The position numbers and the translations under genes are program-made. Shown in pieces: positions 5,992-22,101 of a DNA stretch of 64,000 bases (positions are counted from its first letter, which is position 1; each line of letters starts with the position of its first letter). The stretch is from the NCBI GenBank assembly GCA_017457955.1, contig JAFTGL010000005.1, positions 62,001-126,000 of the forward strand. Reading direction: 5' to 3'. Below the pieces are notes generated by a model, which saw nothing but the letters and a program-made list of their open reading frames with translations, made no database searches and had not been told where the DNA came from. The stretch comes from Ruminococcus sp. (GTDB lineage Bacteria; Bacillota; Clostridia; Oscillospirales; Acutalibacteraceae).

Positions 5992-6102
5992 TATTGAGGT
6001 AACAAATAGAGCCTACAAAAAATAAACTAAAAAATGTAGAGCATATTTGCACCAAATCCGTTAAAACGGAATTGACGAGAAACCATGAACGGAGGAACAA
6101 AT

Positions 6103-7370
6103 ATGCTCTACACTTATTCTACAGAAGAACTCATCGGATTGCAAGACTTAATTATCGAAAGAATTGAATCAAATGGAATAGTAATCCATATCTATGGCAA
6201 ACTCAAAAGGAAAGTACATCATTGTCCTGACTGCTCAGCTGAAACATATAAGATACATGATTACCGAGAATAAGTCATCAAAGATATCCCCGTCTACGGC
6301 AAAACAGCATATATCCATTTGCAAAAGCGACGTTATCGCTGTGAATGCGGAAAACGCTTTTACGAAAAGAACACCTTTTTACCCCGTTACCATAGAAGGA
6401 CAAACCGTTTGTCAGCATATATTATCGACCGGATGAGGAATATGGTAACCTTTACAGATGTCGGTAAAGAAGTGAACCTTTCAACCACAACAATTATGAG
6501 GACTTTTGATCTCGTATCATATTCTCCCCGGGATTTTCCGACTTCTCTTTCCATCGATGAATTCAAGGGTAACACAAACAAGGAAAATACCAATGTATCG
6601 TTACCGATCCGGTTAACAAGGCAGTGCTGGACATCCTACCAAAGCGCTATGAAAGCTATTTAATCTCATATTTTTTGAGATTTAAGAAGTCTGAGAGATA
6701 AAGTAACCTCCTTTGCCAGTGATATGTGGAAGCCTTACGCTTTACTGGCTTCTAATCTGTTTAAATACGCCGATCAGATTGTTGACAAATACCATTGGAT
6801 CAGACAAGTATTCTAGGCTTTTGACGGCGTCAGAAAAGATGTTCAGAAAAAGCTCGGCAAACAATACCGTATTTATTTCAAACACTCCAGAAAGCTTCTT
6901 TTTAAGCGTTTCAACAATCTCACAGATGAACAAAAGCAGCAAGTAAACATTATGCTCTGCGCTTCACTTACACTTTCTTCCGCTCATTTCTACAAAGAGG
7001 AATTTCTGAAAACTCTCGACTGCGAAGACAGAGATTCAGCGAAAACTGCTCTATCTGAATGGATTACTTCAGCTTTTGACTGCGGCATTGAAAGGTTCCA
7101 AAAATGCACACAGACAATGATTAACTGGCAACCGATATCCTTAATTCATTCTCGACACCTATCACTAACGGCCTTACGGAAGGTTGCAACAATAAGATCA
7201 AAGTCCTTAAAAGAATCGCTTACGGTTACCGAAATTTTCGAAAATTCAGGAATCGTATCCTTTATATCTTTTCTTACCAATTACTTAATTACGCGAAACA
7301 AGCGACAGCTTCTTAGCCATCGCTTGTCTATTCTCTCATTCTGTTTTTTCCGGGTTTACCCCAACTATTG
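6103..7370 (+). pseudogene. ISL3-family transposase, inactivated
   Basis: Translation starts at the ATG at 6103 behind ggagg and encodes the zinc-finger region typical of ISL3 transposases (HHCPDCSAETYKIHDYRE, then QKRRYRCECGKRFYEK). The helix-turn-helix follows (FTDVGKEVNLSTTTIMRTF), then the start of the DDE domain (LSIDEFKG) and downstream parts (DMWKPYALLASNLF, DKYHWIRQVF). The frame is broken by an in-frame TAA after HDYRE, a shift near 6590-6720 and a TAG after WIRQVF. Further shifts follow toward the C-terminus. An active ISL3 enzyme would be about 400-430 residues in one frame. All recognisable parts are in order, so this is one gene decayed by point mutations, not a mosaic. Confidence 0.9.
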
Positions 7371-7796: not shown

Positions 7797-8864
7797 TTAG
7801 AATACTAGTGTTCCAACATATACATCAATATAATCATAATTATTGTTTAATCCCGATAACTTAGTTTTTACAGGAACTCTAATTAAATCGTTCTTTATTA
7901 AATCATACTGTGTTTTCGAAATTATTCGAGGGATAATAGTACCATTATCACGTTTTTCTAAAATTCCCATACCAGCCCAAAAATCTACCATTGAGGACGA
8001 ACTCGAACCAATATGAGGCCACGCCTCACCACCCGGTCCCAATCCAAAAGAAAACAGCAACGGAATGGTGCTTTCATCATCAAAAAACGATTCTCCTCTA
8101 ACTTCATAATCCGCATCTAAAAAAGCTTCGTTAAATACGCGTGACCATCTATAAAGATTATATGTTTCTTCTTCAGTTAAATTTGTATAATCTTTCACTC
8201 CATCAAGTTTAAAATTTGTTTTTACTTTTGAAATTCTTCGCTTTTTATCTTCCTCATCATAAGAGTCAAATCTTTTATAATAATCAGGCATCATTTCTTC
8301 AATTCGGCTTAGTAGCTTTTCTTTCGAAAAGCCAACACTTTCATATTGTTCTCTTGCTAAAATAAGAGACAATTCTACTTTATCTCCAATAATACTTTGG
8401 AAAATACTCAGCACATCACGAAACGACTGAGTATATGCGTCTAATCCTTCTTGAGGAATATTATTCAGTTCAGATAAAATAACTTCTTCCGACTCATATT
8501 CAATCGCTACGGTATTATTTTTATACGAGTTATAGATTGGAGCCAAAAACTCAAGTAAAAATTTAATATTAAACACTTCTGCCCAATCGCATTTTGGGTA
8601 TGTTGGGGTCCACCAATGCTTATAACCACCGAAACTAGGAACGAAAATCATCGGTAAAGATTTTGCAATAATATTGTCTAATCTGCTTTTGACAAAATCT
8701 CTAACTTCCTGTGTTGTAGCGTATTTTCTATATCTCCTAAGGAAAATGCGATTTAGTGCTTTTTCTCCAAGGTTTTTCATATCAAATACTTCTTTTGAAA
8801 GACCATGTGTAGAAATCAATTCATTATTAAGATAATCTTGAATTTCATTTCTGAGTTTTTCCAT
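7797..8864 (-). CDS. conserved protein of unknown function, GGYK-type (third gene of the tRNA-like cluster)
   Basis: This 355-residue soluble protein starts at an ATG with a strong upstream aaaaggag. I do not recognise a named family. Conspicuous blocks are VPSFGGYKHWWTP (about 85-97) followed by PKCDWAEVFN, then EYESEEVIL, and near the C-terminus FSFGLGPGGEAWPHIG, a serine run, DFWAGMGILEKR and IIPRIISKTQYDLI. Dense aromatic, glycine and acidic residues in short conserved-looking blocks suggest an enzyme active site rather than a structural protein. No signal peptide or membrane helix is seen. It is the last gene of a minus-strand cluster with a PLP enzyme (8998-10017) and an unrecognised 624-residue protein. 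The only gap in the cluster is filled by a tRNA-like RNA gene on the other strand. A role acting on that RNA or its charged form is speculation. Confidence 0.7.
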   Translation of the reverse strand: MEKLRNEIQDYLNNELISTHGLSKEVFDMKNLGEKALNRIFLRRYRKYATTQEVRDFVKSRLDNIIAKSLPMIFVPSFGGYKHWWTPTYPKCDWAEVFNIKFLLEFLAPIYNSYKNNTVAIEYESEEVILSELNNIPQEGLDAYTQSFRDVLSIFQSIIGDKVELSLILAREQYESVGFSKEKLLSRIEEMMPDYYKRFDSYDEEDKKRRISKVKTNFKLDGVKDYTNLTEEETYNLYRWSRVFNEAFLDADYEVRGESFFDDESTIPLLFSFGLGPGGEAWPHIGSSSSSMVDFWAGMGILEKRDNGTIIPRIISKTQYDLIKNDLIRVPVKTKLSGLNNNYDYIDVYVGTLVF

Positions 8865-8882
8865 AAAAATCTCCTTTTCCTA

Positions 8883-8916
8883 TTGACAAAAGCAATATTT
8901 TTTATTATATTATAAT
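8883..8916 (+). promoter_or_regulatory. sigma-A promoter of the tRNA-like RNA
   Basis: Perfect TTGACA at 8883-8888. The -10 is TATATT at 8906-8911 (17-nt spacer) or the overlapping TATAAT at 8911-8916 (22-nt spacer). Either would start transcription within about 10 nt of the cloverleaf 5' end. The opposite strand also has a TTTAGA-17-TATTAT pair that could drive the 7797-8864 gene. Confidence 0.7.
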
Positions 8917-8924
8917 ACAGATAA

Positions 8925-8997
8925 GCTGTTGTGGTCTAAAGTAAGACGCTAGTGTTGTTTGCTAGAGATGATGGGTTACAACCATCCAACAGCTCCA
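8925..8997 (+). tRNA. tRNA-like RNA with UGU anticodon loop and encoded CCA; non-canonical elbow
   Basis: The 73 nt fold with exact tRNA spacing. Acceptor 7 bp (8925-8931 with 8987-8993), linker TG, D-stem 4 bp (8934-8937 with 8944-8947) and a 6-nt loop. One linker base, then anticodon stem 5 bp (8949-8953 with 8961-8965; last pair U-G) with a 7-nt loop GTTGTTT. Variable region of 4 nt, T-stem 5 bp (8970-8974 with 8982-8986) with a 7-nt loop GTTACAA, base 73 T, and CCA at 8995-8997. T33 is present and positions 34-36 read UGU (Thr, codon ACA). Unlike a translating tRNA, the D-loop AAAGTA has no GG and the T-loop has no TTCRA, so the usual D/T-loop elbow contacts cannot form. Own promoter and terminator flank it. 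It may be a dedicated non-translational tRNA-like molecule, a decoy, or a decayed tRNA. Confidence 0.65.
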
Positions 8998-10017
8998 TTA
9001 AGAGTCAACTATAATATAGTTGGCTCTTTTGTTTTCACAAAAATTTGTATCCATTTCACTACAATAGGCCCCACATTCTTTAATGATTAGTTCATCCCCT
9101 ATTCTTAAATCAAATGGGAGGGAATAAACTCCAATGATATCAGAAATATCGGATGTATCTCCACACACTAAATAATCCGTGAATTTGTTATTATTCTCAG
9201 ACAAAGCTTTAATCTTGAAAGACCGTTTTTTAACTATACAGTCTATTAAACCACTATATATCCCGCAATCTATGAATAATAATTTTTTTTCTTGTTTTTT
9301 CCGTATAGATACAATCTTGACGACTAAATCTATGCTAGGATTAAGAAGATGTCTACCTGGTTCAACAAGAATGACGGGCACTTCATTAAATGAGCTTTCA
9401 ACTGTTTTCTTAATTGATTTTACATCTGATGGCTTTATACCGCCACCTATATCAAGATACTTTATATCTTTTATGTTTTTAGCGATATAGTTCAATACTT
9501 TTATATGATTTTCCAGGGATGCGACTTCTTGGGGCAGATAATATGAAACTCCCAAAAAAGTATAGCCACTCTCTTCGATTTGCTTTGCCATATGACAAAT
9601 GTCATTTAAGGACGCTCCCCATTTTAATTGAATATTATCTGTTTCTACTACTTTATTTATATCCAATCTCAAAAGGAATTTTAAGCCAAGTCCAGTTCCT
9701 CTCTGAATAATGGACTTACAGATTGTAACATCATCAACAGCATAATTGACTATTTGTAATGATAAAAGTTTATCAATTGTTCTTGCGTTTGTCAATAGCG
9801 GAGATGAAAATAAAATCCGCTTTGGATCAACCTTCATTTCCATTATTAGCATAACTGCCTGATAATATGATTCAACTTCATATCCTCTAATAAATGGATC
9901 TATTATCTCTAAGAGAGTTTTATCAGTATTAACCTTTAGGGGATAATAAATCTTAGCATTGATTCTAAAGGCTTTTATTGTTTTGATAAGTTGTTTTTTA
10001 TTTATAATATACTTCAT
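8998..10017 (-). CDS. fold-type-III PLP enzyme, ornithine/diaminopimelate decarboxylase-like, divergent active site
   Basis: The 339-residue protein follows the Orn/DAP/Arg decarboxylase-2 layout. YPLKVN has the expected Schiff-base lysine (Lys28). LDIGGGIKPSD is the glycine loop and VEPGRHLLNPS the phosphate-binding EPGR motif. GDELIIKECGAY carries the substrate-contact GAY. Two residues that are normally conserved differ. The GxSFH histidine that stacks on the PLP ring is tyrosine (GVSYYLPQE), and the catalytic CDxxD cysteine is serine (GDTSDISD). The protein is shorter than typical members (about 370-420). These changes suggest altered chemistry (different decarboxylation outcome, racemisation or binding only) or loss of activity. 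Its stop codon at 8998-9000 abuts the CCA of the tRNA-like gene, and its last codons form one arm of that gene's terminator. No good Shine-Dalgarno is seen, consistent with coupling to the gene 7 bp upstream. Confidence 0.85.
   Translation of the reverse strand: MKYIINKKQLIKTIKAFRINAKIYYPLKVNTDKTLLEIIDPFIRGYEVESYYQAVMLIMEMKVDPKRILFSSPLLTNARTIDKLLSLQIVNYAVDDVTICKSIIQRGTGLGLKFLLRLDINKVVETDNIQLKWGASLNDICHMAKQIEESGYTFLGVSYYLPQEVASLENHIKVLNYIAKNIKDIKYLDIGGGIKPSDVKSIKKTVESSFNEVPVILVEPGRHLLNPSIDLVVKIVSIRKKQEKKLLFIDCGIYSGLIDCIVKKRSFKIKALSENNNKFTDYLVCGDTSDISDIIGVYSLPFDLRIGDELIIKECGAYCSEMDTNFCENKRANYIIVDS
9001..9034 (+). terminator. intrinsic terminator of the tRNA-like RNA, inside an antisense coding end
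   Basis: A 12-bp stem (9001-9012 with 9015-9026, one G-U pair) with a 2-nt nominal loop is followed by TTTTGTTTT. It starts 3 nt after the encoded CCA and overlaps, on the opposite strand, the last eight codons and stop of the PLP enzyme gene. Confidence 0.85.
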
Positions 10018-10024
10018 AAAATAA

Positions 10025-11899
10025 TTAAAGTGTATTTATTATTACAGAGTTTATGCTTTTTAATTGCTCATATACACTGTCATTAGATAATATGATGCTC
10101 CTAAATATCTGTTTTATTTCAGGAAACAATGTATCTGTTGGTCCGATATCAACCATAAAAAGACCATTGTCAATTAAGTCGACTCCTTGGCTTTGATTAT
10201 CAGAAAAAGTTGTATACCATGCTGCAGATTCATTATACTCTTTTCCATTTGGGCTGTATCCTAAAAACAAAGTAAAACTATATGCTAATGTAAAAGGGTT
10301 TCCATCTTCAATGGGAAGAAAAACAACATTATCTAAATAACAGTTTATCTCATCTTCTGACAATACTATTTCTCCCGGATACTCATTCTCTCTTTCAGGA
10401 AGAAGCCACTCTTCTACAGGTTCTGAAATAATTACATTATTCGGTTGCCCTTCTCCAAGTGCATATTCTTTGTAACGAAAAAACTCTATTAAGTTTGAAA
10501 TATCTTCAGTAGAAAAGTTTTTATCAACTCTCTCATCACTAGAAGTTTGCCATTGACATAATAAATACATATTATATAAAAGTTCGAGATTATCGCAAAA
10601 TTCATTAATATTTGCATTAGTGCATAACTTTGTATCACTTCTTAAAGCTTTTAGCAAAACACCAAGATTACCTAGAAAGCGAAAGATAGTTTTTTCATTG
10701 TTTATTAGTTTTCCTCCTATCCATTCTTGTAGCTTATTTCTATCAATATGCAAATCGATTGGTTTATCGGAATTAGCAGAATGACAAAGCGATAGTATAC
10801 CATCTAGTCTTTCATGATCATATTGTCCACATAGTGAAAGCAAATATGAAATCACATTACTAACTGGTTTGTTGCACACTACGGTAAAGAATTCATCTAA
10901 ATAACACCCTTTGCTTTTAGCCATTCTTATCCATGCTACAACTTTTTTACGAGCTTTAAATGACTTTTTATAATAAGCTTTTAATACCTCTTTAAATGCT
11001 TCAACAGTATTTTTGTATCGCTGTGGAGCATAATAACAATATTTTACTCCTTTTTTTGTGTTAATTGCTATTGTCAGTGATGACATAGTTGTATAATCGT
11101 AATTTGTCCATTCATTTGTTAAAATATGTATTTCGCTTTGGGGTGATGCATTCATCTCTCCTGATGTATTTGTATATTCTCCTATAGTTTTTTGCGAGAC
11201 TGCTTCTCTTTGTGTGCATTTATTTAATACTGTTAAGCAATAATCATCCTTTTTGAAGTAACCTATACCACCCTGCAAGACTTCTCGTTTGATAGTATTA
11301 AATTGTGTACAAACAATGGATTCATCAAGATCAGAGGTAAAAGTATAATATGGAATCTTGCTGCTTCTAATTAACTGGAAAATATTATCGTTAATTCCAG
11401 AAGAATATTTATCAATAAAAACTAAAATTTTTTTCTTCTTTTTTATTGAGTATAATAACTCGAATTCTAAAAGAGATAATTCAGTATCTTGAATAAGATT
11501 ATACTGTGGGATTTCTTCTTGATCAAACACATCTCCAAAATAATCAGCTGGTATTCTACATTCTGGTTGCGCAGAAGGATACACAAGCAAAACACAATCA
11601 GCTAAATCAATATTGCTCATTATAGTTGGTAAAAAGTCACTTGGTTTTGCATCTTTAGATAAGGACATCGTAATCGGAAATCCATACGATTTCATAACAG
11701 AGTGTATCACTGTATCCTTAATCTTAATATTCTCTACGCTCTTGTCTGATGTAATATAAGTAATCAATATCGCATCTACATGCTTTTTGATGGGTACAAT
11801 GACTCTTCTTTTGTTTTGCATATTATTAGATGTTTTATCCGTATCGATTAATTGCATCATAAATAATCTGTCTCCATCAATATTAATAAACGTCCCCAT
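10025..11899 (-). CDS. unrecognised 624-residue protein with N-terminal Rossmann-like domain
   Basis: I cannot name this protein. The first ~210 residues alternate short hydrophobic strands and helices (DAILITYITS, ADCVLLVYPS, LLEFELLYSIKKKKKILVFID, IPYYTFTSD). A strand-acidic-helix-strand order like ELSLLEFELLYSIKKKKKIL resembles DUF4062, TIR-like or nucleoside deoxyribosyltransferase-like domains, in which a glutamate in the helix matters; this is inference only. The C-terminal 400 residues are mostly helical with many Cys and Trp and no membrane span. The ATG at 11899 has no Shine-Dalgarno; Met14 is preceded by ggag at 11 nt and could be the true start. It is the first gene of the minus-strand cluster and ends 7 bp before the PLP enzyme, so the two are surely co-transcribed. 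Confidence 0.65.
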   Translation of the reverse strand: MGTFINIDGDRLFMMQLIDTDKTSNNMQNKRRVIVPIKKHVDAILITYITSDKSVENIKIKDTVIHSVMKSYGFPITMSLSKDAKPSDFLPTIMSNIDLADCVLLVYPSAQPECRIPADYFGDVFDQEEIPQYNLIQDTELSLLEFELLYSIKKKKKILVFIDKYSSGINDNIFQLIRSSKIPYYTFTSDLDESIVCTQFNTIKREVLQGGIGYFKKDDYCLTVLNKCTQREAVSQKTIGEYTNTSGEMNASPQSEIHILTNEWTNYDYTTMSSLTIAINTKKGVKYCYYAPQRYKNTVEAFKEVLKAYYKKSFKARKKVVAWIRMAKSKGCYLDEFFTVVCNKPVSNVISYLLSLCGQYDHERLDGILSLCHSANSDKPIDLHIDRNKLQEWIGGKLINNEKTIFRFLGNLGVLLKALRSDTKLCTNANINEFCDNLELLYNMYLLCQWQTSSDERVDKNFSTEDISNLIEFFRYKEYALGEGQPNNVIISEPVEEWLLPERENEYPGEIVLSEDEINCYLDNVVFLPIEDGNPFTLAYSFTLFLGYSPNGKEYNESAAWYTTFSDNQSQGVDLIDNGLFMVDIGPTDTLFPEIKQIFRSIILSNDSVYEQLKSINSVIINTL

Positions 11900-12077: not shown

Positions 12078-12554
12078 TCATAATAGGCTATTAATTTCAA
12101 TAATATTCTCAAGAATTTGCGTTTTTAGTGAAACCATTATTTCTTTTATATCTTCATTAAGTTTTCCCTTATCAAAAAAGAACTTTGTTTGCTCTTGCAT
12201 ACAATCATTAAAAATGATAGATAGTTCGTATGTTTCAGCAATATTCTTCCGTGCTTGATTATTTAAAAGTTTTAAATCACCTGTTGATAATGCTAATTCA
12301 TAAATAGTTGTCTTGAGATGTTTAATTGAAGATGCGGGAAGAATCTTTGTGTCCTTCCAGTCTACAAGTGCTTGTCTATTATATTCTAATTCCGTTTGAA
12401 ACTCTTTAATTATTTCTTTTTTCCTTTTAAAATTATGTAATAACGATGAGAGCCATCCAATCAGTAAGGGAAGCGCAACACCAACAGCCGTTGCAATTAA
12501 ATCTGGGAAAAACTGGGACCAATCTGAAATACTAATGCATGAAAAAATTGACAC
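12078..12554 (-). CDS. small membrane-anchored helical protein of unknown function
   Basis: The start is GTG, set by an excellent Shine-Dalgarno (caggagg, 8 nt spacing). The 158-residue product has a single hydrophobic segment (about residues 18-38, LIATAVGVALPLLIGWLSSLL) followed by a lysine-rich KRKKE stop-transfer sequence and about 115 residues of charged amphipathic helix. This layout, with a short outside N-terminus and a long cytoplasmic coiled region, is common among small proteins in phage-defence islands, but I see no diagnostic motif. It lies upstream of the 624-residue protein on the same strand with a 178-bp gap containing a weak hairpin, so membership of that operon is uncertain. 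Confidence 0.6.
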   Translation of the reverse strand: MSIFSCISISDWSQFFPDLIATAVGVALPLLIGWLSSLLHNFKRKKEIIKEFQTELEYNRQALVDWKDTKILPASSIKHLKTTIYELALSTGDLKLLNNQARKNIAETYELSIIFNDCMQEQTKFFFDKGKLNEDIKEIMVSLKTQILENIIEINSLL

Positions 12555-13685: not shown

Positions 13686-14500
13686 TCATTTCTTTCTTCC
13701 CACCACCAAGAAATGCGGGCTTAAACCTATCAGCGTTTCTTCGTGTTCGGTGGCGTGGATAAGTTCAAGCAGTCTGCTTCTGCTGTCTATATCCGGCCAC
13801 TTTTCATCGAGCTTTGGTGTTATCCACAAACACCCCTCAACAGCGTGAGAATTTACAACCTCAAATCCGCTGTTTTGGACTTCGTTTCTCAATTCGTCTA
13901 TCGTATGGAAATAGGCATTTGCGATAATAAACGGATATTCCTTCGGGCGGTTGTGTTCGCCTGTGGCGAGCTCGTGTTTGAGCATGTTCATATAAATATC
14001 ATCGTCAATAAAATTGCAACCGTTTCCGTAAACAGATAATGCCCAAGTGGTGGAGCTGAATTTGGAAATACCAGCCGCAATCAACAAACCGCCCTTTTTC
14101 AGGACACGGTAAGCTTCGCTAAGTGCCTTATCACGGCATCCTTATCCTGCAAATGGTACAACGGTCCCATTAACAAAACTACATCTGCGCTATCATCTGG
14201 TTTGTTGATTTCTCTTGCATCACCGATCTCTGCTACATAGGACGTTTTCATATTCTTCTTTGCGTAATCAACCGCTGTCGGCGCAAGCTCAATCAGCGTT
14301 ACATCGTGTCCCTGTTCAGTAAGCCATTCGGAATATTTTCCGATTCCGCCGCCTATATCATAAATAGTGCTTTTCTCGTTTATGTACTGAGAAATAATCT
14401 CCTTTGAGCGATAAAACTCAACGATACCTAAACCATGTTCAAGGCGGTCAATCTCAGCTCCGTTGTTGTAAAACTCATATACTTCATTTATGTTTTCCAT
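13686..14500 (-). pseudogene. class I SAM-dependent methyltransferase, frameshifted
   Basis: The 5' half (14500-14099) encodes the Rossmann methyltransferase core, with the SAM loop IYDIGGGIGKYSEWL and the acidic strand end TLIELAP, and MGPLYHLQD as motif IV. It then runs into a false end (HLAKLTVS and stop). The other frame carries the expected continuation, LSEAYRVLKKGGLLIAAGISKF, and the rest of the protein down to 13686. Adding one base in the ggca tract near 14120 joins the halves into a ~270-residue enzyme with the common EAYRVLKKGG motif. It is therefore either inactivated by a one-base deletion or an assembly error. Substrate unknown; the family often modifies small molecules. Confidence 0.8.
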
Positions 14501-14605
14501 AAAAAGGCTCCTAAACTAAACGGTAAGTATTTCATAAAACATTCCTTCTTGGCGTTTTTAACAATCAGTCTAAATCATTTACAATTGTCATCATTTATTG
14601 ATCAT

Positions 14606-16420
14606 TTAAATTTTATCAATATCTGTAATTTCTTGTATTTTTTCTTCTATTCTTTTTGAAAACTCTTTATTTATTGTTGCTGTAATAAAATCATTATCGT
14701 TTTGGTCACTACTAAGTAATGTTTTAATCAATTTCTGAAAATTACTAATTGTCTCTTTCCGTTCTTCTATAGTCAAATATTCTTTGTCAGTAAAACTTAA
14801 ATCCATAAGTATAAAACACAAATCACGCTTATTCGCATTATCACTTTTTAAATATCTTTGGATGAACAATGCCAATAAGTCTGTATCAAAACATCCAATA
14901 ATCTTCCCACGAAATTCGTAACTATTAATTCCATCAACAAGATTTAAATATCCAACAAATCTATTACGAGGTTCTAATTCATATAGTTTTTTATCAAAGT
15001 TTTCAATATCTTTGTAAATATTATAGGCTTCTTCGTCAATCTGAGCTTTTTCTGCAAATCTACGTCTTTTTGGTTCTTCAATCTGATTTGACAATACTAA
15101 TTTTTTCCTTTTCTCAAACCCATCCTTAATTTTTGAATAATCAACTATACAGGGTAAGGGAATTGAATATTCTTTCATAGTGTGAACTTTTTGTAAAAGA
15201 GAAATAAGTTGATCTCTTATTAATTCACCGTTGTATGCTTTTTGTACAGCCTCAGGTAAACCTATTTCTATGTTCGATTGCTCTAAATCCCAAAAACTAT
15301 ATAAAAGAAATATTTCAACATCACCTAGATTTAAAGGATTAAACTTACTCTGTATTTCATCCAAAAACACTTGTTCATCCCAGATTCCTTTAGTAATCCA
15401 TTTTTGGATAGAATAAAGTTCATATGTACTGCTCCATTTTGAAAAAAGATCTTTAGAGTGAACATCAGAAAAAATGTACCCATATTCTCCCTCCTTATAA
15501 AAACCTCCTTTTACTCCAAATAACATTGCCCCAAACATATAAAACACATTAACTTCTAATCCTAAAGGAACATTAGAATTATGCCATGATGTATAAACAC
15601 GTTCATAATCAGTAATAAACGCTTTTACAGAACGCAGATTTTCGACTTGACTTTCTGTAAATACTTTATGAATTGTTTCGATGTTTGTTTTCAGAAAGTC
15701 TTTATATCCTTCTGTGGTTTCTGTATAACTATTTACAATAGATTCTATTGCATTTTGATAATCGTATTTAATTTGTACAGTACGAGAAACTAATTTCTCT
15801 TTAAACTCTTCGTACTTATTATCTTTATCATTATTATTGGTCGACTTTATTTTATCTTCATCGGCTATTATTATAACTTTTATATTCTTATTCTCTGAGT
15901 AACTGTTTATCGCTCCCATTAGATCAATTCTGTCAATTTTTGAACGCTCAAAGTCATCAAAAAATAGAATTAATTCCTTTTTTATGATTTTATTATCATT
16001 TTCTGAAGTGTTTGCAAAATTGTAACACGATATAAATTTTTCTACGAAAAAGAAATCTTGCCAACGAACTGTTAATGCAGCATTAATACTTTTTGCTATT
16101 TTGAAATGTTCACCTAAGATGGTTGATGTTGTTAACGCAAAATCCTTTACTTTATTTAATTGTTTCTTTAGCTTATCTGGAGTTTTATCGAATCCTCTAC
16201 TGAAAAATACTTTATTTTTAATTTCATTGTGAAACACTTCTATAGAATCTATTCCAAACAATGATATTGAAACAGCAAGATACTCATTACTGTTATTTAA
16301 ATTGGATGCAATATTTTGGATTAAATATGTTTTGCCGCATCCCCATTTACCGGTAACTAAAAGAGCTCCGTTATTTGACTTTTGATTTATATAATCTATT
16401 ATTTCTTGTTTAGTGTCCAT
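14606..16420 (-). CDS. KAP-family P-loop NTPase
   Basis: The 604-residue protein has a Walker A loop GKWGCGKT at 24-31 and a Walker B strand LILFFDDFERS at 150-160, followed by sensor-like IKVIIIADEDKI. The order and the DDFER motif match the KAP P-loop NTPases (STAND-like ATPases). The C-terminal ~380 residues are helical and have no recognised domain; unlike many KAP proteins no membrane helices are obvious inside the NTPase. KAP proteins are frequent in anti-phage islands, some as triggers of abortive infection, so a defence role fits the mobile context but is inferred. The ATG follows aaggag. It stands alone between the methyltransferase remnant and two acetyltransferases. Confidence 0.85.
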   Translation of the reverse strand: MDTKQEIIDYINQKSNNGALLVTGKWGCGKTYLIQNIASNLNNSNEYLAVSISLFGIDSIEVFHNEIKNKVFFSRGFDKTPDKLKKQLNKVKDFALTTSTILGEHFKIAKSINAALTVRWQDFFFVEKFISCYNFANTSENDNKIIKKELILFFDDFERSKIDRIDLMGAINSYSENKNIKVIIIADEDKIKSTNNNDKDNKYEEFKEKLVSRTVQIKYDYQNAIESIVNSYTETTEGYKDFLKTNIETIHKVFTESQVENLRSVKAFITDYERVYTSWHNSNVPLGLEVNVFYMFGAMLFGVKGGFYKEGEYGYIFSDVHSKDLFSKWSSTYELYSIQKWITKGIWDEQVFLDEIQSKFNPLNLGDVEIFLLYSFWDLEQSNIEIGLPEAVQKAYNGELIRDQLISLLQKVHTMKEYSIPLPCIVDYSKIKDGFEKRKKLVLSNQIEEPKRRRFAEKAQIDEEAYNIYKDIENFDKKLYELEPRNRFVGYLNLVDGINSYEFRGKIIGCFDTDLLALFIQRYLKSDNANKRDLCFILMDLSFTDKEYLTIEERKETISNFQKLIKTLLSSDQNDNDFITATINKEFSKRIEEKIQEITDIDKI

Positions 16421-21943: not shown

Positions 21944-21971
21944 AGTGTCAGGTGACTGACCAACTGAATAT

Positions 21972-22086
21972 ATCTTCGGGGTAGGGTGAGATTCCCGACC
22001 GGCAGTATAGTCTGCGAGCTGTTGTCGCAAACAGCATGATACGGTGTGATTCCGTAACCGACGGTAAAGTCCGGATGAGAGAAGAT
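21972..22086 (+). promoter_or_regulatory. FMN riboswitch (RFN element)
   Basis: The conserved RFN blocks are present in order: atcttcgggg, agggtgagattcccgacc, ggcagtatagtctgcgagc, a variable hairpin, ggtgtgattccgtaaccgac, ggtaaagtccggatgagaga, agat closing with the first block. This aptamer binds flavin mononucleotide and represses riboflavin uptake or synthesis genes. Here it precedes an intrinsic terminator and then ribU. Confidence 0.97.
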
Positions 22087-22101
22087 GTGATAGCTTGAAC
22101 T

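Follow-up and report, generated by a model that had tools for sequence, protein, structure and literature searches.

A tRNA-Thr-like gene beside the gene of a DIT1/PvcA-like protein: a putative non-decoding amino-acid donor and its possible relatives of other identity

What purpose is served by a gene that can be folded into a complete tRNA cloverleaf and lacks the bases with which ordinary tRNAs build their elbow? Such a gene is located at positions 8925..8997 (plus strand) of a 64,000-nucleotide stretch of the Ruminococcus sp. contig JAFTGL010000005.1; this whole stretch is referred to below as the window. The acceptor stem (8925-8931/8987-8993), the D arm (8934-8947), the anticodon arm (8949-8965, with the anticodon UGU at 8956-8958) and the T arm (8970-8986) are followed by U73 (8994) and an encoded CCA (8995-8997); the D-loop is AAAGTA and the T-loop is GTTACAA. 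A preliminary description, made from the sequence without database searches, had suggested a tRNA-like RNA with a dedicated role, one that might receive threonine or another amino acid for use in a biosynthetic or defence step, and its coordinates, stems, loops, anticodon and CCA were all confirmed when the sequence was read again. The gene is recognised by its score with the Rfam tRNA model, by covariation with homologous loci and by the bases at its loop and identity positions. Our reading is that it probably encodes a dedicated tRNA that can be charged but does not decode, and that feeds one amino acid not to the ribosome but to the DIT1/PvcA-like enzyme P0001, whose gene lies next to it.

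When positions 8800-9100 were searched with permissive filters, the Rfam tRNA model matched 8925-8994 of the plus strand: the score is 41.7 bits (the family's gathering score is 29), and E is 8.9e-8 for a search space of 301 bases and 4227 families. Other searches missed the gene: ARAGORN called no tRNA anywhere in the window; Rfam with fast filters at the gathering threshold reported only a flavin mononucleotide (FMN) riboswitch in the window (21968-22090, plus strand, RF00050, 113.6 bits); and a search of the whole host genome with RF00005 returned 35 matches that did not include it. The plus strand folds with -23.2 kcal/mol (z -2.43; 4 of 200 shuffles as good or better) and the minus strand with -18.2 (z -1.61). 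The centroid fold is the exact cloverleaf, to which the minimum free energy fold adds one extra pair in the anticodon stem. A single copy is present in the host genome (G000; 1.83 Mb in 15 contigs, 74% complete), where canonical tRNA-Thr(UGU) and tRNA-Thr(CGU) are encoded by separate genes.

The gene is flanked by transcription signals and is presumably transcribed. The promoter at 8883..8911 (plus strand) consists of TTGACA (8883-8888) and TATATT (8906-8911) separated by 17 bp; it scores 11/12, the best of six promoter-like sites in 8780-9120, in agreement with the TTGACA-type promoter that had been claimed. The remaining five sites are all on the minus strand and score 9-10/12, and shuffles of the region contain a mean of 2.0 such sites (standard deviation 1.6). 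An intrinsic terminator is located at 9000..9036 (plus strand), its stem (9000-9028) being followed by a T tract; the search gave one terminator here versus 0.1 in shuffles. The terminator and T tract had been described correctly, except that the stem has 13 pairs rather than 12.

An alignment of P0001 with a Rhizobium homolog was scanned against the genome_contigs collection, described as covering 84,980 species, and yielded 14 loci. In four of them, L005-L008, a tRNA-like gene is present at the same place, beside P0001 proteins of 72-79% identity. L005 and L006 are assigned to Clostridia, L008 to Christensenella and L007 to Candidatus Scatousia (Bacteria incertae sedis). Together with the window these make five threonine-type loci, all of which have the module order P0003, P0002, tRNA-like (on the other strand), P0001. 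In all five, the distance between the CCA of the tRNA-like and the stop codon of P0002 is 0-6 nucleotides, and each tRNA-like is preceded by a TTGAC-type -35 element, 17 bp and a -10 element (10-12 of 12 matches). A hairpin with a T tract was found after the CCA in four of the five loci by script and in L006 by eye.

In the aligned stems of the five RNAs 95.2% of cells are paired, compared with 34-52% when the partners are slid by 1-3 columns. Six pairs changed on both sides, versus 0-1 after sliding; shuffles gave a mean of 2.8 such changes, and six were reached in one of 500. Further pair types were not above shuffles (10 versus 9.3). The covariation evidence is thus strong but not large, since five sequences are few and related. 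Stems preserved by compensatory change, by which the preliminary description had proposed to tell a real cloverleaf from an accidental or decayed one, are present in the homologs. Since the gene is conserved with covariation in four further loci, the alignments indicate that it is more than a chance cloverleaf. The stems contain 93 Watson-Crick, 7 G-U, no A-C and 5 other pairs, pair 6-67 being U-U in three of the five RNAs. As the 7 G-U and 0 A-C pairs are counted on the plus strand, this is the strand of the folded RNA; for the same reason, and because of its poorer fold, a minus-strand RNA acting as an antisense leader of P0001 was ruled out.

Which parts of a tRNA have been retained, and which have been given up? 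All five RNAs retain G1-C72, C2-G71, U3-A70 and G4-C69, as well as U8, U33, G35, U36, U73 and the encoded CCA. At the wobble position the five have U, C, A, C and U, so that every anticodon is NGU, that is, a threonine anticodon. The excerpted text of PMC9976931 gives G1-C72, C2-G71, G4-C69, G5-C68, G34, G35 and U36 as elements of bacterial tRNA-Thr; by this list three of the four acceptor pairs (G1-C72, C2-G71 and G4-C69) are present, and G34 is present in none of the five RNAs. The constant NGU and the three acceptor pairs lend weight to the earlier suggestion of threonine.

The D-loop GG, the TTCRA T-loop and purine 37, in contrast, are absent from all five RNAs. These three features together with U33 are found in every one of the 31 host tRNAs examined (of the 35 matches) and in all 19 other tRNAs of G726, a WWE3 genome discussed below. 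EF-Tu, t6A37 modification and the ribosome depend on the D-loop GG, the TTCRA sequence and purine 37, and U37 would rule out the t6A modification that is typical of tRNAs reading ANN codons. The statement that the elbow bases are lacking needs some qualification: GG and TTCRA are indeed gone, but U55-C56 is retained in four of the five T-loops (position 56 is U in the window) and all five D-loops contain a G; a weak elbow of a single pair is possible in the relatives L005-L008. Judged from sequence features alone, the RNA of the window retains its synthetase identity while the features needed for translation are gone.

Is the linkage of such an RNA to a P0001-type gene limited to the threonine-type loci? 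Another of the 14 loci, L017, belongs to G726, the phylum of which we take to be the Patescibacteria. A profile search of 379 genomes of this phylum identified 12 positive genomes with 13 gene copies (the gene of G743, which is in two pieces, was counted once). Nine of the 13 copies have a tRNA or tRNA-like 0-9 nucleotides upstream on the same strand. ARAGORN called five of these (L017 Cys, L081 Arg, L082 Met, L084 Cys and L086 Cys); the four missed by both ARAGORN and Rfam were detected by a cloverleaf script (L083, L085 and L087) or by eye (L076). Each locus was also compared with 200 two-base-block shuffles, of which 2-15 contained at least one match to the script in the region (3 for L083, 5 for L085 and 6 for L087). 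With an assumed neighbour chance of 5% per gene, the probability is 2.9e-4 for five of 13 and 1.2e-9 for nine of 13; with 1% it is 1.2e-7 and 6.9e-16. Both rates are assumptions, and compact genomes do place ordinary tRNAs near genes (L098 is a case). Among the 24 loci compared, no protein family besides that of P0001 occurred in more than four, and none was regularly seen beside the P0001-type gene in this phylum.

The nine RNAs differ in identity: four are of Cys type, one each is Ala-type, His, Met and Arg, and L085, which has U73 and no anticodon loop, has no assigned identity. L076 has G2-C71, G3:U70, G4-C69 and A73, with a UUCG tetraloop in place of the anticodon loop, and L083 combines G-1:C73 with the anticodon GUG; in the excerpt of PMC9976931 these are the bacterial alanine (acceptor) and histidine sets, respectively. 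The Cys-type RNAs (L017, L084, L086 and L087) have U73 and the anticodon GCA, and their stems covary. In the Ala-, His- and Cys-type RNAs the identity elements of each molecule are consistent with one another. The threonine-type RNAs all keep U33, but all four Cys-type RNAs have C33 instead; G726 also has a canonical tRNA-Cys with U33 (L049). The D-loop GG and TTCRA are likewise gone from L086 and L087 and from L082, whose anticodon is CAU. The six full cloverleaves contain 115 Watson-Crick, 7 G-U and no A-C pairs, and an encoded CCA ends all 14 RNAs (the five of threonine type and the nine others).

The constant partner, P0001, belongs to a family that appears to be remotely related to DIT1/PvcA, the amino-acid isocyanide/formyl synthases. 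When 26 members were scanned, DIT1_PvcA (PF05141) was the best Pfam match in eight (seven of WWE3's phylum and L016) and the only family below E 0.01. L024 alone exceeds the gathering cut-off (31.0 versus 26.4 bits), followed by L080 (25.6), L084 (19.7), L082 (18.1), L016 (16.5), L086 (14.9), L083 (14.5) and L081 (13.8), the last three with E above 0.01. Profile positions 34-97 are common to all eight matches; none of the remaining 18 members, among them P0001, gave a match of this kind. In a PF05141 control of 299 Bacillota genomes none was above the cut-off and three reached 15.5-16 bits, and scores near 16 therefore prove little by themselves. P0001 and its relatives gave no match to a Pfam entry of the Fem transferase family. 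GGYK, YP, WAE and a C-terminal S...S....W.G.G are among the invariant parts of an 11-member alignment; a 16-member alignment that includes more distant copies has fewer invariant columns. HDAC6 (E 0.37) as a relative of P0001 and FRIGIDA (E 0.39), matched by the family profile, were taken as chance.

In a tree of 26 members (L087 was left out; L085 and L003 are on long branches) the five threonine-type loci form one supported group (99/99, or 100/99 with L009), and the Cys and His types form another together with L080 (100/99). L010-L016 and L077-L079, which lack the RNA, fall on the side of the threonine group. Thus, the pairing of tRNA-like and enzyme has either had several origins or been lost repeatedly.

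We propose the following scheme. Since G1-C72, C2-G71, G4-C69, G35 and U36 are kept, the host threonyl-tRNA synthetase (ThrRS) would most likely charge the tRNA-like with threonine in the cell. The threonyl-RNA would escape EF-Tu and be kept out of translation because of the loss of the D-loop GG, TTCRA and purine 37. P0001 would then consume it as an amino-acid donor, giving, by a presumed chemistry, a product on which P0003 and the decarboxylase-like P0002 probably act next. In WWE3's phylum the two-part unit of tRNA-like and P0001-type enzyme stands alone, and the tRNA-like would set the amino acid used (Cys, Ala-type, His, Met, perhaps Arg), and the anticodon loop may have been dropped where alanyl-tRNA synthetase (AlaRS) would not need it. 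A donor function is suggested by the retention of the parts read by a synthetase with loss of those used in translation, by the fact that the constant partner is one family related to amino-acid-modifying enzymes, and by the consideration that an enzyme acting on a free amino acid would not need a tRNA of its own. The linkage to P0001 and the tRNA-likes of other identity beside its relatives likewise lend strength to a biosynthetic role, one of the two first considered, and a small-molecule pathway is indicated by the clustering of the Rhizobium homolog L003 with genes for an aminotransferase, a methyltransferase, MetK and a major facilitator superfamily (MFS) transporter. More generally, we lean towards the view that two-part cassettes, in which a DIT1/PvcA-like enzyme has a private non-decoding tRNA and the amino acid is programmed by swapping tRNA identity, occur across distant bacterial groups. 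They would include Thr, Cys, Ala, His, Met and perhaps Arg identities, as well as forms without an anticodon loop whose synthetase reads the acceptor stem only.

A number of observations weigh against this scheme. When the five threonine-type RNAs are folded singly, the centroid is the exact cloverleaf for the window copy alone; L006-L008 still form four arms, but their stems are shifted, and L005 folds differently. The ThrRS element G5-C68, listed in the same excerpt as the others, is not found in them. L083, L085, L087 and L076 were recognised by script or by eye, and four of the 13 copies in WWE3's phylum (L077-L080) have no adjacent tRNA-like. In L017 and L084 the D-loop GG and TTCRA are retained and C33 and base 38 are the only differences, so that escape from EF-Tu is not suggested for these two; this makes our reading slightly weaker and continued decoding slightly stronger. 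The Arg-type L081, in which all features checked are canonical, is perhaps an ordinary tRNA. P0001 itself has no Pfam match, and one of 26 members passes the DIT1_PvcA gathering score. Finally, no tRNA-like adjoins any of the seven homologs L010-L016, nor the two Rhizobium copies looked at (L003 and L018); a P0001-type enzyme can exist without a nearby tRNA-like.

The P0001 family might alternatively attack aminoacyl-tRNA in the manner of a toxin, with the tRNA-like imitating the target tRNA as a decoy or RNA antitoxin. This would agree with RNAs that retain synthetase identity and the acceptor end but not all decoding parts, with the location of the pair among unrelated genes in WWE3's phylum, and with the defence-type genes a few kilobases away in the window (PADLOC PDC-S49, 14606-16420). 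We consider it unlikely, as seven Bacilli/Clostridium-type genomes keep homologs without any adjacent RNA, the gene company of L003 looks biosynthetic, and neither homologs in the phage and viral collections searched nor PADLOC matches for P0001-P0003 were obtained. Distinctly unlikely, too, is a regulatory RNA, either a tRNA mimic or a small RNA, controlling P0001 expression like the thrS operator of E. coli or tRNA-Other of Bacillus cereus. Its location directly before P0001-type genes in WWE3's phylum (0-9 nucleotides, same strand), a place compatible with an mRNA leader, and its antisense position in the window, with P0002 on one side and P0001 on the other, would be suitable for control; however, in all five threonine-type loci the tRNA-like is on the strand opposite to P0001 with its own promoter and terminator, and cannot therefore be the 5' leader of P0001. 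In addition, an operator mimic needs neither the encoded CCA that ends all 14 RNAs nor the acceptor-stem identity elements that most of them have.

The remaining alternatives regard the gene as an ordinary tRNA, alive or dead. That it still decodes in an unusual form might be supposed from U33 and the matching anticodon of the five threonine-type RNAs, from the tRNA-Thr calls made by ARAGORN in L005-L007 and from the canonical L081, but it is made very improbable by the loss of GG, TTCRA and purine 37 in five of five, by C33 in all four Cys-type RNAs, by L076 and L085 with no anticodon loop, and by the canonical tRNA-Thr genes of the host. A decayed tRNA left at an integration site would be in keeping with the AT-rich module and with the lack of P0001 in the 58 other relatives searched; it is hardly credible, being contradicted by the compensatory changes, by the promoter and CCA kept in all five loci, and by the repeated linkage to one protein family.

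To our knowledge, non-ribosomal use of aminoacyl-tRNA is limited to a small number of enzyme families, and dedicated tRNAs are rarer still. The non-proteinogenic tRNA-Gly of Staphylococcus carries glycine only and works with Fem-type enzymes. According to excerpts of PMC9976931 and PMC4810233, it serves peptidoglycan interpeptide synthesis. Like this RNA, the one described here would be a tRNA that can be charged, has given up elements on which the translation machinery relies and supplies an enzyme other than the ribosome, charging being predicted here from identity elements. Unlike the Staphylococcus RNA, it is encoded in fixed association with a DIT1/PvcA-related protein, its identity varies among relatives (Thr, Cys, Ala-type, His and Met), and two copies have no anticodon loop. 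The resemblance of the P0001 family to DIT1/PvcA (PF05141, with the isocyanide synthase PvcA and yeast Dit1) consists of weak profile matches that recur in an overlapping region. Described DIT1/PvcA members work on the free amino acid and give isocyanide or N-formyl products. In the excerpt of PMC7345447, the substrates of PvcA are tyrosine and ribulose-5-phosphate, and formyl tyrosine is the most likely product of Dit1; the amino acid there is tyrosine, in contrast to what we propose for P0001, and tRNA is not mentioned in that excerpt. tRNA-Other of B. cereus is, similarly, a tRNA-like gene that does not serve translation, and the excerpt of PMC3399842 describes no enzyme family paired with it. 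The thrS operator, a tRNA mimic in an mRNA leader, shares the mimicry of a threonine anticodon, but, as far as the excerpt of PMC9976931 goes, nothing in it corresponds to the acceptor arm and it forms a section of its own mRNA, whereas the RNAs described here have a complete acceptor end with CCA and, in the threonine-type loci, a separate gene.

Searches of open PMC full text returned no title or abstract opening that describes such a tRNA/enzyme pair, a scope outside which most subscription papers and bioRxiv fall. The enzyme family, gene linkage and changing identity of the system are without counterpart in the Staphylococcus tRNA-Gly; the principle of a dedicated donor tRNA is already known. 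If our reading is true, a tRNA gene that occurs in several identities and is fixed to an enzyme gene would open a direct way to the function of an uncharacterised family, with the amino acid substrate being predictable from DNA alone in poorly cultivated groups (gut Clostridia and Patescibacteria). The RNAs themselves would be natural examples of tRNAs expected to be accepted by a synthetase but rejected by the ribosome.

In the window, P0001 (355 amino acids; 7797..8864, minus strand) is divergent from the tRNA-like gene. On the other side P0002 (339 amino acids; 8998..10017, minus strand), whose stop codon abuts the CCA, is by its Pfam domains a pyridoxal phosphate-dependent decarboxylase of ODC/LysA type (fold III): Orn_Arg_deC_N (47.6 bits) and Orn_DAP_Arg_deC (33.3 bits) are both over their cut-offs, and a five-member profile matched 48 PDB sequences at E <= 0.001. 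The terminator hairpin of the tRNA-like gene (9000-9036) doubles on the opposite strand as coding sequence for the last residues of P0002, and the positions in L005 and L007 imply the same overlap. P0003 (624 amino acids; 10025..11899, minus strand) is conserved in its central and C-terminal part, the N-terminal ca. 170 residues being missing in L006 and L008. Neither P0001 nor P0003 belongs to a Pfam, NCBIfam or PADLOC family at the thresholds used, and Pfam at E <= 1 gave only weak matches for the five P0003 members (the best, Raptor_N, in one member, E 0.0024). The match of 7ue2 to the P0003 profile (E 0.13) was taken as chance. Glr2806 (PDB 9k9w) was rejected as a relative of P0003, since its match is an artefact of repeats in which the best individual domain has an i-E of only 18. 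A 158-amino-acid protein (12078..12554, minus strand) has a relative before P0003 in three of the five loci only (window, L006 and L008), which leaves its membership of the module uncertain.

The GC content of 7797-11899 is 0.313, compared with 0.541 for 20001-64000, and among Bacillota around the host, searched in overlapping samples of 59, 295 and 398 genomes, only the window genome is positive for P0001; for these reasons the module was probably acquired. A putative transposase gene remnant broken by stops was recognised by eye at 6100-7320 (plus strand), between the module and the preceding genes. The defence-type genes lie at 14099-16420 (minus strand) and comprise PADLOC PDC-S49 (14606-16420, E 8.8e-44) and a mad2-like piece (14099-14500).

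Besides L005-L008, the collection scan had returned ten loci: L009, which is cut by a contig end, L010-L016, with 42-46% identity to P0001, L017 and L018. A class-wide search of eight genomes around G726 gave no new locus. The phage and viral collections that were searched contained no homologs of P0001, its family members or P0003, and no Thr-like RNA turned up when viral contigs were scanned for its exact pattern. Among plasmids, only Rhizobium leguminosarum was positive for the P0001 family and none for P0003. On its plasmid pCC283b_4 the P0001 homolog (L003, 3553-8906) is accompanied by genes for diaminobutyrate-2-oxoglutarate transaminase, an S-adenosylmethionine (SAM) methyltransferase, MetK and an MFS transporter. 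The annotation of L004 splits the homolog into two pieces. R1 matches of 17-18.5 bits in L003, L004 and L018 lie inside the MFS gene and were taken as chance. Gut-1 RNA (RF01706) is present above its gathering score in L006 (7683-7754) and below it in L008 (1019-1091, 2443-2524 and 2545-2615). Upstream of the L007 module, at 401-958 of that locus, a NusG/KOW protein is encoded, possibly a specialised antiterminator.

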